A stretch of 30,411 nucleotides of DNA from a virus: IMG/VR virus record IMGVR_UViG_3300027836_000027, positions 1 to 30,411 of that record. One strand, given 5' to 3'. Positions 1,797 through 30,411 of this stretch are shown piece by piece. A program made the position numbers and the translations under genes. The notes beneath the pieces were generated by a model. That model was given only the letters and a program-made list of their open reading frames with translations, was not told the DNA's origin and searched no databases. How positions within the stretch are numbered: the first letter of the stretch is position 1; each line of letters opens with the position of its first letter.

Positions 1797-2090
1797 TTAG
1801 TTTTGCATATTTAAAATATGCTCAACTACTTTTTTTTCTGAATCAGGAAATTTAATACCTGTTTTGTTACATATATATGAAACCGTGTGTCTGCCTGTTT
1901 TTTTGCTCAAATTACAAATTGCTGTTATTGCGTTTTCAAAACATACATCATCAATCCAAACATTCATTGGTGTTGAATAAGTTTCTTTAAAAATATCTGA
2001 TGTGGTAATTGTATTTGAATACTCTGCAAATCCAACCTTTGCTTTTATTGATTTGCCGTTTAATTCGATTGATTTGTTGTAAATAGCCAT
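1797..2090 (-). CDS. First early protein, hypothetical (97 aa)
   Basis: I chose ATG 2090 (MAIYNKSIELNGKSI). The longer start at 2132 would place the coding sequence on top of the promoter -7 box at 2121-2128. From a start site near 2114 this leaves an A-rich leader of about 25 nt without a Shine-Dalgarno motif, as is common in Bacteroidetes. The N-terminus looks beta-rich; the C-terminal half looks like a helix-turn-helix-sized segment (FENAITAICNLSKKTGRHTVSYICNKTG reads as helix-turn-helix, but no known family is matched). As the first gene from the strongest visible promoter and next to ATAGGT repeats, it could be an early regulator or takeover factor. That is inference only. Confidence 0.78.
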   Translation of the reverse strand: MAIYNKSIELNGKSIKAKVGFAEYSNTITTSDIFKETYSTPMNVWIDDVCFENAITAICNLSKKTGRHTVSYICNKTGIKFPDSEKKVVEHILNMQN

Positions 2091-2120: not shown

Positions 2121-2151
2121 CAAATGTAACACCTTATTTTATATATCCAAA
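2121..2151 (-). promoter_or_regulatory. Bacteroidetes-type early promoter
   Basis: Read on the minus strand, TTTG (2151-2148), a 19-nt spacer and TACATTTG (2128-2121) match the Bacteroidetes consensus -33 TTTG and -7 TAnnTTTG exactly in both boxes and in spacing. The predicted start site is about 2112-2116, just before the 97-aa gene. This is the best promoter in the window and the natural start of the early transcript. Confidence 0.82.
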
Positions 2152-2202
2152 CAATTTCAAACAAATTAATGCAAAAAAATACCAATTATTTATTTAACGG
2201 TC

Positions 2203-2254
2203 AAAAAATATGTAAAAAATAGGTAAAAAATAGGTTACCTATTAAAAACCTATT
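2203..2254. repeat. 11-bp direct repeats with inverted ATAGGT half-sites
   Basis: Three head-to-tail 11-mers of the form AAAAAATAGGT (the first reads ATATGT) occupy 2203-2213, 2214-2224 and 2225-2235. They are followed by inverted copies: ACCTAT at 2237-2242 and again at 2248-2253. The centre AATAGGT-T-ACCTATT (2229-2243) is a 7-bp inverted repeat. A further ACCTAT lies at 2329-2334. The one-turn period and dyad suggest cooperative binding of a protein, either an operator/activator array for the early promoter 50-130 bp away or iterons of a replication origin. No binding partner can be assigned; the Cro/CI-like protein at 26251-26457 is one candidate. Confidence 0.7.
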
Positions 2255-2270
2255 GAAAAAATAGTGTAAC

Positions 2271-2302
2271 AAAAAAGGGAAAACCCAATGGGTTTGCCCT
2301 TT
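2271..2302 (-). terminator. Rho-independent terminator at the end of the late region
   Basis: Read on the minus strand, AAAGGG-C-AAACC pairs with GGTTT-T-CCCTTT around a 5-nt loop, and the stem is followed by a run of T. It lies about 50 nt after the metallophosphoesterase stop, the last gene before the early promoter. It therefore separates the late end from the early start on the circle. Confidence 0.85.
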
Positions 2303-2348
2303 CTTTACAACAACTTATGAATCACTAAACCTATTTATTCATGCAAAT

Positions 2349-3335
2349 CTACACAATTTTGCCATCTTTTATTGCAATTAGATCAACCTTTGATTTGCCA
2401 TCTGTGATTTCTACAATTGCAAATCCCTGTGTGTGCTGATTGAATGGCATATATTTTGGTGCTGTTGTCGTTAAACACCCTGTGGAATACGTGTGAATGT
2501 ATTGCCCAAACCCTGTTTTTCTTGTTGTGGTGGTTTGGCGATGCACATGGCCCATCAGGGTATTGCAAAACATTTTATTAAATAGCGACTGCGATGGATT
2601 GATTCCACCAACACCGAAACCCTCGTGGCCGTGAATCACTAATAAATCACCCATATATACACCCTGCCAATCAGGGATAAATTTTATATCCAAATGATCC
2701 AATCTAAAAAATTGGTTGAATTGCATTTCGTGCAATTGCGCAAATTCCTCTGCCTGTTCGTTTAAATATCTTTGATACCTGTTTTCGTGGTTTCCTGCCT
2801 TGAAATAAATTGGGATCAATGGAAAATTGCTTCGCAGGGTTTGCATGAAATTTCGGCACATTTCAATTTCTTTTGGAAAATCCCGCAAATTGGGATCGCG
2901 TTCATGCCGGCTGATCGAATATTGATCAAAAGTGTCCCCATTCAGATACAAACAATCGATGTTTCTGCGCTTTAATTCCTTTATTGCACATATCAATGCA
3001 TCCATTGAATGGAACGGCACGTGTATATCTGAAAGGATGCCAATCACCTTAAAATGATCCGGCAATGATGTAGGCAAATATTCCTCACCAATTGAATTTT
3101 CAAACCCAAAATTTTCTAATTCCTCAAAATTTGTTGATTCAATTTTTGAATTTGGTAAATTGGCTAATTGCCAAACATTGCGCTCACGAATCAATATATT
3201 GTGAACTCTCATTGTTTTTCGGAACATTTCCGCACTTACGTATCCGTATGTTTCATAATATTTCTCCGAAAAGGTTTTGACATTTAATGGCGATGAATAA
3301 AAATGATCTCTGATTTGATCGTGTTTTTTGCCCAT
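2349..3335 (-). CDS. Calcineurin-like metallophosphoesterase
   Basis: This 328-aa protein carries every metal-binding motif of the calcineurin-like phosphoesterase superfamily in order: SDIH (102-105), NGD (132-134), GNHE (181-184), HGH (235-237) and GHVH (262-265). About 95 N-terminal residues before the catalytic domain are helical and resemble a small winged-helix or DNA-binding domain. Related phage enzymes hydrolyse phosphodiesters or phosphomonoesters, including nucleic-acid ends; the substrate here is unknown. It is the last gene before the terminator and stands apart from the tail operon: a terminator (3396-3427) and the duplicated 24-bp element (3352-3375) precede it, so it is probably expressed from its own signal. 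An intact active site makes catalysis likely. Confidence 0.92.
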   Translation of the reverse strand: MGKKHDQIRDHFYSSPLNVKTFSEKYYETYGYVSAEMFRKTMRVHNILIRERNVWQLANLPNSKIESTNFEELENFGFENSIGEEYLPTSLPDHFKVIGILSDIHVPFHSMDALICAIKELKRRNIDCLYLNGDTFDQYSISRHERDPNLRDFPKEIEMCRNFMQTLRSNFPLIPIYFKAGNHENRYQRYLNEQAEEFAQLHEMQFNQFFRLDHLDIKFIPDWQGVYMGDLLVIHGHEGFGVGGINPSQSLFNKMFCNTLMGHVHRQTTTTRKTGFGQYIHTYSTGCLTTTAPKYMPFNQHTQGFAIVEITDGKSKVDLIAIKDGKIV

Positions 3336-26250: not shown

Positions 26251-26457
26251 TTATGGCAAAATCTGATTTGCATCAATATCTAGCATTTTGCACACTCTTA
26301 ATGCTGTGATTAAATTCGGACACATTTTGCCTGAAATCCAATTGCACACGGATGAATGCGTTGTGTTCAATTCATCGGCCAATTCGTGCCTGCTTATTCC
26401 TTTTTTTTCTAATCCTTTTAGCACCAATGTGCCAAATTCTGTTTCGATTGCTTTCAT
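26251..26457 (-). CDS. Cro/CI-type helix-turn-helix regulator
   Basis: The 68-aa protein is a single HTH_3 (XRE-like) domain: GLEKKGISRHELADELNTTH then SSVCNWISGKMCPNLITALR, with a five-helix pattern to DANQILP. It has no cleavage or dimerisation domain, so it is Cro-like in size. It follows the ABC/GNAT gene after 9 bp. Candidate targets are the repeats at 2203-2254 and the dyad at 29068-29079. Without an integrase nearby, a lysogeny switch is not established. Confidence 0.92.
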   Translation of the reverse strand: MKAIETEFGTLVLKGLEKKGISRHELADELNTTHSSVCNWISGKMCPNLITALRVCKMLDIDANQILP

Positions 26458-26466
26458 TTTTATAGG

Positions 26467-27633
26467 TTAAAATAATGTTAATTGATGTTTATGTTCGTCC
26501 AAATACCTTAATTTATCTATGGGTAATAATAGGTCATTAAAACCATTAATTGATTTTCCAATGTATTTATGACAATAATGAATAGATTTTCTTAAATTAT
26601 TGTATTTATTCAATGGATCAACTTTGTCATTTCTTATTTTTCCATTGTGGCCTGTTGGTTTCCATTTATTAAAATACAAATTCCTATATTCTCCCAATGC
26701 AGGATTTGATGTTTTTGTGTAATAGTTACAATTTGTATTTTTTGAAATTCCTGCGCAAAACTCACTTATTGCACTACCAATTCCCATTCCTTGATAATCA
26801 GGTAAAACAACAATTCTGCTTTCACGATAACTTTTAAAACAATCAGTTTTGCCAACTTGAATACCTAATACATTTATTGCAATTGGTTTATTGTTTAATT
26901 CAAATAATAAGTAAATATATGCCGGATTTGCTTCTTGTGTCAAATAATGATGCTTTTTGAATAAATCCCAAATTTTAGATTTGCATCTGTAAACTGATAA
27001 TTCAATTTTTGGTTTCCCTTGCCTAAGATATTCGCACTTTTCGAGTGCGCCTCCTTTTTCAGGTGACAAAATATAATCGGGCATTAACCATTCAAAAATA
27101 TCGTAATGACACGATGCAAAAACAACCCTTTTATTGTGCTTTCTTATAAATTTTTGAATTGCAAAACTCATTGATTTTGCCACATCTCTATTTACAACCG
27201 ATGTAAATTCATCAATTAGCACAATATCCTGATCTAATGATTTTGCCAATTTATATGCAATTAATGCCCTATATTGTTCGCCATTTGATAATTTGTCAAA
27301 TGGTCGCAACCAAGATGGAACACTTGATAATCCAACTGATGACAAAATTTTTGTTGCCTCTTTTGGTTCTAACCAATCAAAATTTGAAATTAGTGCTTTT
27401 GAATTGTCAAATATTGGATCTGATACATCGCCTAATGATTTTAAAATAGTGCTTTTACCACTACCACTCCCACCATAAATCACAATTATATTCCAATTAA
27501 AATCGCCTAAATTTTGCAAATTATGATTGATTTCAAATTCTGTATTTTTTCGATCCTGAATATCAAATGATTCATACACATATTCTGTGTATTGATCATT
27601 TTTAATTTCATTTGTTAATTTTATTGTTTTCAT
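26467..27633 (-). CDS. ABC-type ATPase fused to a GNAT-like acyltransferase domain
   Basis: The 388-aa protein has two enzyme-like halves. The N-terminal ABC ATPase shows Walker A GGSGSGKST (54-62), signature LSNGEQ (115-120), Walker B DIVLIDE (136-142) and the switch His176 in ASCHYD; it has no transmembrane part. The C-terminal half (about 210-360) has HHYLT (228-232) and the acyl-CoA-binding motif VVLPDYQGMGIG (275-286) of GNAT enzymes. The order is ABC then GNAT, as in the little-studied group related to COG2401. GNAT-fold Mom of phage Mu modifies DNA adenine, so protective DNA modification is one possible role, but the target is unknown. It is AT-rich beside its neighbours, suggesting acquisition. 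Confidence 0.9.
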   Translation of the reverse strand: MKTIKLTNEIKNDQYTEYVYESFDIQDRKNTEFEINHNLQNLGDFNWNIIVIYGGSGSGKSTILKSLGDVSDPIFDNSKALISNFDWLEPKEATKILSSVGLSSVPSWLRPFDKLSNGEQYRALIAYKLAKSLDQDIVLIDEFTSVVNRDVAKSMSFAIQKFIRKHNKRVVFASCHYDIFEWLMPDYILSPEKGGALEKCEYLRQGKPKIELSVYRCKSKIWDLFKKHHYLTQEANPAYIYLLFELNNKPIAINVLGIQVGKTDCFKSYRESRIVVLPDYQGMGIGSAISEFCAGISKNTNCNYYTKTSNPALGEYRNLYFNKWKPTGHNGKIRNDKVDPLNKYNNLRKSIHYCHKYIGKSINGFNDLLLPIDKLRYLDEHKHQLTLF

Positions 27634-28373
27634 ATTATTTGTCCGTTTTCATCCAATGTCATATCCATTTCGGCTAATTGGTGGCAAAACAATTTGTATG
27701 CCTCACCTTTGCATTCTGCATTGTACAATTTATCATCTGTATATTTGGGCCTCAATCGTGTTTTGATTTGTTCACGATCAACATCAGGGCAAACCCATAT
27801 TCCAAATTTTACTAAAAAATCATATAGATGTGCCAATCCTTTTGGCCATTCAAATTTGCCACCGGTTTTTTCGTATGCTTTAATTTTAGCTATGTATGCA
27901 TTAACATTATAAACTGCATCTGCTTTTAATTCTGCATCCGTTGGTGTTGGTTTTTTTTCTTCTAATTGTGGCCGTTTTACCAATTTGGTTTCCTGCCTTG
28001 CATATTCAATGTATGCGTTCATAATTCGGCCAAAGTATTCACACGAAAAATTCTCATAACATTTGCAATCAGTATTTAATTTACCTGCAACTGCCATTTC
28101 AAATGCAATGGCTATTTCTTCGGGTGTTTGATTGCCGTAATTTGATTTGATAAATGCTAACAAAACATATTTTTCCTCATCGGTTGGCATATTTGCACCA
28201 CGCAGGCCAACCATTAGCATTGACAACCGCAAAACCTGTTTTAAATCATTTTCTGATCGTGTCCTAATGTTTAATGTGCTTTGTGCCTTAATTATTGTAT
28301 TGACTATACCATTAAAATTTTGCAAGGGCTGCCATTCTTGCTGCACTCGTTCCAAGTTTTGTTTCTGATCCAT
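27630..28373 (-). CDS. Replication-region protein, possible helicase loader partner (247 aa)
   Basis: The gene overlaps the replication organizer by 62 bp and the ABC/GNAT start by 4 bp. The protein is helical, with a conserved-looking block (LSMLMVGLRGANMPTDEEKYVLLAFIKSNYGNQTPEEIAIAFEMAVAGKL) and a C-rich stretch (DCKCYENFSCEYF). A second half contains KFEWPKGLAHLYDFLVKFGIW. Proteins of this pattern accompany phage replication initiators in Bacteroidetes phages. No Walker A motif is present, so it is not a DnaC-type ATPase. Its role in recruiting host helicase is inferred. Confidence 0.78.
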   Translation of the reverse strand: MDQKQNLERVQQEWQPLQNFNGIVNTIIKAQSTLNIRTRSENDLKQVLRLSMLMVGLRGANMPTDEEKYVLLAFIKSNYGNQTPEEIAIAFEMAVAGKLNTDCKCYENFSCEYFGRIMNAYIEYARQETKLVKRPQLEEKKPTPTDAELKADAVYNVNAYIAKIKAYEKTGGKFEWPKGLAHLYDFLVKFGIWVCPDVDREQIKTRLRPKYTDDKLYNAECKGEAYKLFCHQLAEMDMTLDENGQII

Positions 28374-28980
28374 TGTTGTTGTATTTTTTTGTGTTATTCA
28401 TCCACGTTGTAATTCGCCTTTCAATATCAAAAAATTTCTGATCCTCCCATCGTAATTTGCCATTTTTTTGATTAGGTTCTGCCCAATAATCAATAAATGA
28501 TTCGTATTGATCACCCAATAAAAATGCAGATGATTCAATCAAATTTCGAAATTCATTTACCTTATTTTCTATAATAGTTTTTATAGATTCTTTATTTGTA
28601 TTTTCTTTCTTTATATTATTTGATGGTTTTACTACATAAGCATTTCCCTCATGAGGAAAACCTCTATGTACCTTTTCCTCATTAGCATTTTGCAATGTAG
28701 GTACATCAAATAGTGTATATTGAACCAACCGATGGCCAATTTCGGACATATATCGTTCACGTGTTAAATACCCAAAATTCTCTAATTCCTTTAATGCCGC
28801 CATAATAGCCGGCAAACCCTCCTTTGATTGATGTGCTATCCTTTCAGCACTAAAATCCCAACCATCAGGCTTTGATTGAATGTAGGCAAACAACCCTTTT
28901 GCCTTCAATGAAATGTCTTTGCTGTTTACCAAATCATTTGGCACCGTTGCAAATCTGTTTTTGATTACTAATTTTCCCAT
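28312..28980 (-). CDS. Replication initiator/organizer with winged helix
   Basis: I chose ATG 28980 (MGKLVIKNRFATVPNDLVNS) rather than 29001; this opening is typical of phage replisome organizers. Residues 1-95 form a winged-helix domain (LKAKGLFAYIQSKPDGWDFSAERIAHQ, IMAALKELENFGYLTRERY). After a polar, Lys/Asn-rich linker, residues about 155-195 resemble a DnaT/DnaD-like segment (FIDYWAEPNQKNGKLRWEDQ then FFDIERRITTWMNN). It probably binds the origin and brings in host replication proteins, as no phage helicase is seen. It is preceded by a structured leader and promoter (29014-29096). Confidence 0.88.
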   Translation of the reverse strand: MGKLVIKNRFATVPNDLVNSKDISLKAKGLFAYIQSKPDGWDFSAERIAHQSKEGLPAIMAALKELENFGYLTRERYMSEIGHRLVQYTLFDVPTLQNANEEKVHRGFPHEGNAYVVKPSNNIKKENTNKESIKTIIENKVNEFRNLIESSAFLLGDQYESFIDYWAEPNQKNGKLRWEDQKFFDIERRITTWMNNTKKYNNNGSETKLGTSAARMAALAKF

Positions 28981-29088: not shown

Positions 29089-29118
29089 CAAAAATACAAA
29101 AATTACATTAACATCGAA
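29089..29118 (-). promoter_or_regulatory. Promoter for the replication operon
   Basis: TATTTTTG (29096-29089) fits TAnnTTTG, and TTCG (29118-29115) lies 18 nt upstream, one base from TTTG. It reads into the leader and the organizer gene. The -33 half lies within the end of the 91-aa gene. Confidence 0.55.
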
Positions 29119-29378
29119 CCTTTCAATGGCTTAAATTTGAACAGATTGCCATATTGTGGATGCTCCAATACAAATTTCCGTGCATACATGGGTGCAAAAT
29201 TGTTGTTTACCTTGTATGGATCATTGTTAGAATTAAACGTATAATCGTAACGCATTGCCTCAAAGATATATTTTGATCCTATCTGCCTGCGGCCTTCCTG
29301 TGCCATCTTTACTGCGATGGACTTGTACAACTCATAAATGTGTTTATTGCTCTGATCGTATTGCTGAAAACTTACCAT
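29103..29378 (-). CDS. Conserved phage protein, early region (91 aa)
   Basis: The pattern resembles a widespread, uncharacterised phage protein: F..Y...N..IYELYKSIAVKMAQEGRRQIGSKYIFEAMR, then a Asn-rich loop, YKVNNNFAPMYARKFVLEHPQYGNLFKFKPL. These occur near recombination and replication genes. There is no catalytic signature. Its start lies within the upstream 49-aa ORF (35-bp overlap). Confidence 0.85.
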   Translation of the reverse strand: MVSFQQYDQSNKHIYELYKSIAVKMAQEGRRQIGSKYIFEAMRYDYTFNSNNDPYKVNNNFAPMYARKFVLEHPQYGNLFKFKPLKGSMLM

Positions 29379-30181: not shown

Positions 30182-30411
30182 TTATTTAATTACTTTTTTG
30201 ATTGTGGTTGTGGATGATTTCGATGGTGGGTAAAAATCAGCCAACTCACCTGTTTCCTCATCCAATATAGAAACCTTTGATTTCAATGCCTTACAAAATG
30301 CCTCAATTTCTTTTTGTTTGTCTTTTAGGCGATCAATTTCAAATTGCAATTTGCACCACGATTCCGTTTCTGAATAATCATATTTTACACCGCCCTCCAT
30401 TTCTGAAAAGT
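30182..30411 (-). CDS. Junction-spanning phage protein, C-terminal part
   Basis: This is the rest of the 154-aa gene that starts at 362; bases 30285-30411 duplicate 1-127. An internal Met at 30400 is not the true start, as the frame is open upstream for 82 more codons in the circular genome. The part encoded here contains the coiled helix (EIDRLKDKQKEIEAFCKALK), an acidic turn (ILDEETGELADFYPPSK) and the Ser/Thr/Lys end. Confidence 0.85.
   Translation of the reverse strand, partial: FSEMEGGVKYDYSETESWCKLQFEIDRLKDKQKEIEAFCKALKSKVSILDEETGELADFYPPSKSSTTTIKKVIK
30285..30411. repeat. Terminal direct repeat, copy 2
   Basis: Exact copy of bases 1-127; see copy 1. Remove one copy to obtain the unique circular sequence of 30,284 bp. 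Confidence 0.9.

Follow-up and report, generated by a model that had tools for sequence, protein, structure and literature searches.

In the lambdoid OR and OL regions, operators for dimeric repressors form palindromic repeats that allow cooperative binding beside the early promoter. Class-I activator sites of the CRP type lie upstream of their promoters, at distances that change in helical-turn steps, and the omega-repressor operators of the pSM19035 group consist of seven-base half-sites (heptads) in direct and inverted orientation. Here we analyse a repeat array in one genome of an uncultured Bacteroidota phage (IMG/VR record IMGVR_UViG_3300027836_000027, 30,411 nucleotides, called the window below), which shares features with each of these systems and matches none of them completely.

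Like OR and OL, the array consists of palindromic repeated sites adjoining an early promoter. Nevertheless, its half-sites stand in tandem at one helical turn and flank a single palindrome, it sits ahead of the -7 box by 55-90 bp instead of overlapping it, and it is optional, with neither a linked repressor gene nor a tyrosine integrase. Its placement upstream in helical-turn steps resembles that of class-I CRP-type sites, from which it differs in being multi-unit, not one dimer site, and in that the promoters look intact without it. As in the omega operators, the half-sites are seven bases long and both direct and inverted, but omega heptads are contiguous whereas these are 4 bp apart (11-bp step), and no omega-like protein was found for this array. 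Finally, iteron origins of plasmids and phages also carry short, helix-phased direct repeats in AT-rich DNA; the array, in contrast, does not track with the initiator, is dispensable and gives no skew signal. On balance, the sequence evidence below leads us to regard the array as an accessory, helically phased putative operator, that is an upstream regulatory array, of the early promoter.

Genome context

The genome is about 30.28 kb and circular in the assembly, with identical 127-bp ends (1-127 and 30285-30411), where the assembly of a circular or permuted genome overlaps itself. The minus strand carries every long gene: a recombination and replication set that includes an Erf-like annealing protein, an SSB-like protein and the HTH_36 initiator, followed by the genes for terminase, portal, capsid and tail, with a metallophosphoesterase last. 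At its N terminus, the initiator has a DNA-binding domain that exists in unrelated allelic forms (14% identity), exchanged among close relatives. Positions 26467-27633 encode a 388-aa protein whose N-terminal part matches an ABC-type ATPase and whose C-terminal part matches a GNAT acetyltransferase, and a minus-strand hairpin at 1740-1759 separates the 97-aa and 78-aa genes. The features needed here are as follows.

1797-2090, minus strand: first early gene, 97 aa, of no convincing family and not common to the phages with the array
2121-2151, minus strand: TTTG-N19-TACATTTG, a putative early promoter that fits the Bacteroidota consensus, its -7 box lying 89 bp from the core of the array
2184-2201, minus strand: ACCGTTAAATAAATAATT, a separate conserved element adjoining the array, also found in relatives without the array, remote ones included
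2203-2266: whole array, between terminator and early promoter
2203-2213, plus strand: degenerate third direct unit AAAAAATATGT, with half-site AATATGT at 2207
2214-2224 and 2225-2235, plus strand: two exact direct units AAAAAATAGGT, 11-bp step
2218-2254, no strand: array core AATAGGT-N4-AATAGGT-N-ACCTATT-N4-ACCTATT, 37 bp, defined by its sequence and its recurrence in 24 other viral contigs
2229-2243: perfect 15-bp palindrome AATAGGTTACCTATT (AATAGGT-T-ACCTATT), centre of the array, found once in each genome that has the array
2237-2243 and 2248-2254, minus strand: two inverted half-sites ACCTATT, 11-bp step
2256-2266, plus strand: degenerate outer unit AAAAAATAGTG, lineage A only
2271-2305, minus strand: late-operon terminator hairpin with T run, from hairpin and repeat prediction, one prediction placing the hairpin at 2281-2295
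2349-3335, minus strand: last late gene, metallophosphoesterase, PHROG 221, used as query for fetching relatives
26251-26457, minus strand: 68-aa Cro/C1-type HTH protein, a proposed binder
28312-28977, minus strand: replication initiator (Rep), HTH_36, PHROG 428, from profile matches

Read on the minus strand, the gap thus contains the terminator hairpin, the array, ACCGTTAAATAAATAATT, the promoter-like TTTG-N19-TACATTTG and then the 97-aa gene. A sequence-only reading of this DNA had placed the array between a late terminator and an early promoter, and we indeed find the hairpin on one side and a Bacteroidota-type promoter on the other. Its description of the gap as the only sizeable one is roughly right, 2091-2348 being the longest stretch without a conserved ORF. 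TAnnTTTG is the published promoter consensus of Bacteroidota (PMC6414381). TTTG-N19-TACATTTG is the sole exact match in the window, though chance also predicts one, and the putative promoter is backed by conservation in relatives.

Repeat structure of the array

The three 11-bp direct units followed by inverted units that had been noticed from the letters are borne out by the sequence and by repeat tools and stand above shuffled DNA, the array running slightly beyond position 2254, where it had been taken to end. Plus-strand copies of AATAGGT lie at 2218 and 2229, minus-strand copies at 2237 and 2248. The window holds 11 copies of this half-site against 2.6 ± 1.6 expected, four of them inside 37 bp. 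A 7-mer occurring four times within 60 bp, both strands counted, turned up once when the whole window was shuffled 200 times and never when the local gap was shuffled 2000 times. The 11-mer unit, with two mismatches allowed, shows no window-wide enrichment; the signal of the array is the clustering and phasing of its sites, not a window-wide excess of 11-mers. The third unit, AAAAAATATGT, is missing from the two-unit relatives L034, L047 and L051 and is better kept in L044.

Recurrence in related phages

Using the phosphoesterase alone, and not the array pattern, we fetched 32 relatives, of which three haplotypes (L001/L002, L009/L010 and L012) carry the array nearly letter-perfect. In most other relatives of this close group, the terminator leads straight into ATGACCGTTAAATAAATAATT, without the array, which makes the array, as judged from these sequences, a clean presence/absence module within the group. 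In L017, L021 and L028, a different insert just past the phosphoesterase stop, made up of a hairpin and an ORF resembling an HNH endonuclease, fills the usual terminator/promoter slot.

Pattern searches found the core, near-invariant, in 24 IMG/VR contigs belonging to about 8 phage lineages. The flanks of some of these families bear no resemblance to the window, and the phosphoesterase is 53-61% identical outside lineage A. In the inspected cases, the core sits between a hairpin and an early promoter, in either orientation relative to transcription among the loci with the array, and always as one copy per genome. Most loci came from the pattern search, which exaggerates conservation at the bases it specified; the spacers, which it left free, are nevertheless rich in T in each lineage, on the same strand throughout. 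Given the near-unchanged recurrence of the array in distantly related phages, it is probably a control switch to which a protein binds, and not a replication origin.

Among 35 compared genomes, the array is present in 18 and absent from 17, although the set was partly picked by the array pattern and these numbers are not a population frequency. None of the 17 genomes without the array contains the 15-bp palindrome with up to two mismatches. The idea of a putative operator array finds support in conservation, palindromic geometry and stepped distance (see below); the epithet "master" goes too far, given the 17 genomes that lack it.

Distance to the early promoter

We measured how far the core ends from the -7 box, the boxes being called by consensus and some lineage-E members having no clear one. 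In lineage A this distance is 89 bp (window, L040, L044), 87 (L038), 78 (L034, L047, L051) or 79 (L054), and the gain or loss of a unit shifts it by 11 bp (89 vs 78). In other lineages it is 80 (L039), 65 (L045) and 64 (L041, L050, L053, L055), and in further lineages 67 (L035), 55-56 (L049, L037), 67 (L052) and 66 (L130, counted by hand). The core thus precedes the -7 box by 55-90 bp, in steps of about 11 bp.

With one value per lineage (n=8), phase clustering gives p 0.013 for a period of 11 and p 0.048 for 10.5; after scanning periods 10-12 it is p 0.008 (8 lineages). With the seven lineages available before L130, the values were p 0.035 (11 bp) and 0.11 (10.5 bp). These eight points, with promoters called by consensus, are suggestive, not strong, evidence that the distance follows helical steps of about 11 bp.

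The accessory-operator reading fits best because of this stepped distance, the palindromic geometry and the fixed slot. Half-sites AATAGGT one helical turn (11 bp) apart, with a central palindrome, would set regulator dimers next to one another along the same side of the helix, where they could bind cooperatively. The bound dimers might then modulate a promoter 55-90 bp away, either by contacting RNA polymerase in the manner of a class-I activator or as an upstream repressing complex. We infer here the binding of a protein, its dimeric state, its action on transcription and the sign of that action. Several observations count against the operator model: symmetric dimers do not account for the one-strand T runs in both spacers, phages with the same promoter architecture exist without the array, the array occurs in either orientation, and the searches described below revealed neither a binder gene nor a host regulon. 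A lysogeny operator is less likely, since none of 18 relatives encodes a tyrosine integrase (PF00589).

Candidate binding proteins

Three phage proteins had been proposed as binders, the 68-aa HTH protein, the 97-aa protein and Rep, and none of them tracks with the array in the co-occurrence comparison. The 68-aa HTH protein is found in 14 of 38 records, 11 without the array and 3 with it, and it is absent from several genomes with the array, including the near-complete records G001 and G007, so that we rejected it as a dedicated binder. Recognisable relatives of the 97-aa protein occur in just two loci, both without the array (L006 and L013), a separate search for relatives found none, and this protein was likewise rejected on co-occurrence, as was Rep, whose alleles are independent of the array.

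No ORF family separates genomes with the array from those without, either by blastp clustering or by phmmer (E 0.01). The binder is therefore most likely to be either a factor of the host or a protein carried by all phages of the group. Erf, a 247-aa protein, a 91-aa protein (p91, 29103-29378) and a second 68-aa protein (p68b, 1218-1424) occur both with and without the array. Both p68b and p91 are small and shared across the group; p68b has weak recombinase-type HTH matches, and the structure models of the two gave no significant Foldseek match, so that we regard them as candidate binders only. The putative binder may thus be a common phage protein, a host protein without a visible exact-palindrome regulon, or a small protein that was missed.

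On the host side, the 15-bp palindrome occurs at four sites in 395 Bacteroidota genomes, those inspected lying in coding DNA, and no regulon with the palindrome upstream of host genes was seen in them. Genome contigs of about 85,000 prokaryote species gave six matches to the three-site pattern, all unrelated or chance-like. Named phages and plasmids gave no match to the array, Rfam nothing close to a gathering score, and literature searches no description of such an array.

Alternative explanations

The sequence-only reading had also allowed for origin iterons, which would be bound by the phage initiator (28312-28977) and would let it open the AT-rich gap. This gap is indeed non-coding and adjoins the early genes, the repeats are phased and iteron-like, and the rep gene contains no obvious iterons. 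Nevertheless, the 17 genomes without the array include G006, whose RepN is 99% identical to that of G007, which has the array, so that the repeats are not present in every replicon using this initiator. Conversely, RepN is only 14% identical between G000 and G007, which both carry the array, and a test of Rep alleles shows no association with it (difference 0.003, p 0.32); the repeats do not change in step with the initiator's DNA-binding domain. Cumulative GC skew, which had been suggested as a check, falls monotonically with no extremum at the array and no turn near 2200, in a skew dominated by one-strand coding. We consider an origin decidedly unlikely, because the Rep alleles are independent of the array and because many relatives lack it, among them some with virtually the same Rep DNA-binding domain.

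Phased A tracts could also curve the DNA ahead of the promoter and so assist it, with no need for a sequence-specific protein. In a wedge-model calculation, the predicted bend over 62 bp is about 100 degrees, at the 99.95th percentile of the window, and it is high in lineages A and D, with T runs kept in both spacers. In lineages E, F and G, however, it reaches only 42-60 degrees (86th-99th percentile) while the half-sites are intact, several slots without the array are bent equally, and curvature would not require conserved GG/CC bases or a palindrome. Being inconsistent across lineages, curvature was rejected as the sole explanation, which we judge very unlikely, and would be at most an added feature. 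The strongest predicted bend of the window lies at about 3328, at the start of the phosphoesterase gene, and the array ranks second. A site that a dedicated enzyme uses in recombination, resolution, packaging or partition would suit the 37-bp element, which is long, asymmetric and present in single copy, has inverted arms and occurs in both orientations. We find this similarly improbable, given the lack of PF00589 in the 18 relatives and of any gene family confined to genomes with the array, the constrained slot and promoter distance, and the position of the array well inside most contigs, not at an end. Clean presence/absence between relatives and both orientations might point to a small mobile or MITE/REP-like insertion that has no function and accumulates in the only tolerant gap. 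This appears more improbable still: no copies were found in the roughly 85,000 prokaryote species, no phage has a second copy, and the distance to the promoter is stepped.

Related arrays and implications

Two more arrays share the design of a step of about 12 bp plus a palindrome, namely AGGGRC / AGGGAGTACTCCCT and TTGTACG / TTGTACGTACAA, and are found in L039, L041, L050, L053 and L055 and in L037, L049, L123 and L124. They occupy the same slot, beside the AATAGGT array in some lineages, or lie upstream of early genes, which suggests that this phage group habitually stacks such cassettes there. The AATAGGT, AGGGAGT and GTACAA arrays might then be interchangeable upstream cassettes that are gained, lost, flipped and stacked before the early promoter, and that tie early transcription to a regulator not encoded by the phage (a host factor or the protein of a co-resident element), a proposal that we regard as possible but rather unlikely.

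As a putative accessory operator, the array offers a precise DNA probe for fishing out the regulator of early transcription in this uncultured group of Bacteroidota phages. That a putative regulatory element is near-invariant across lineages and yet dispensable speaks for control cassettes that small phage genomes can exchange.
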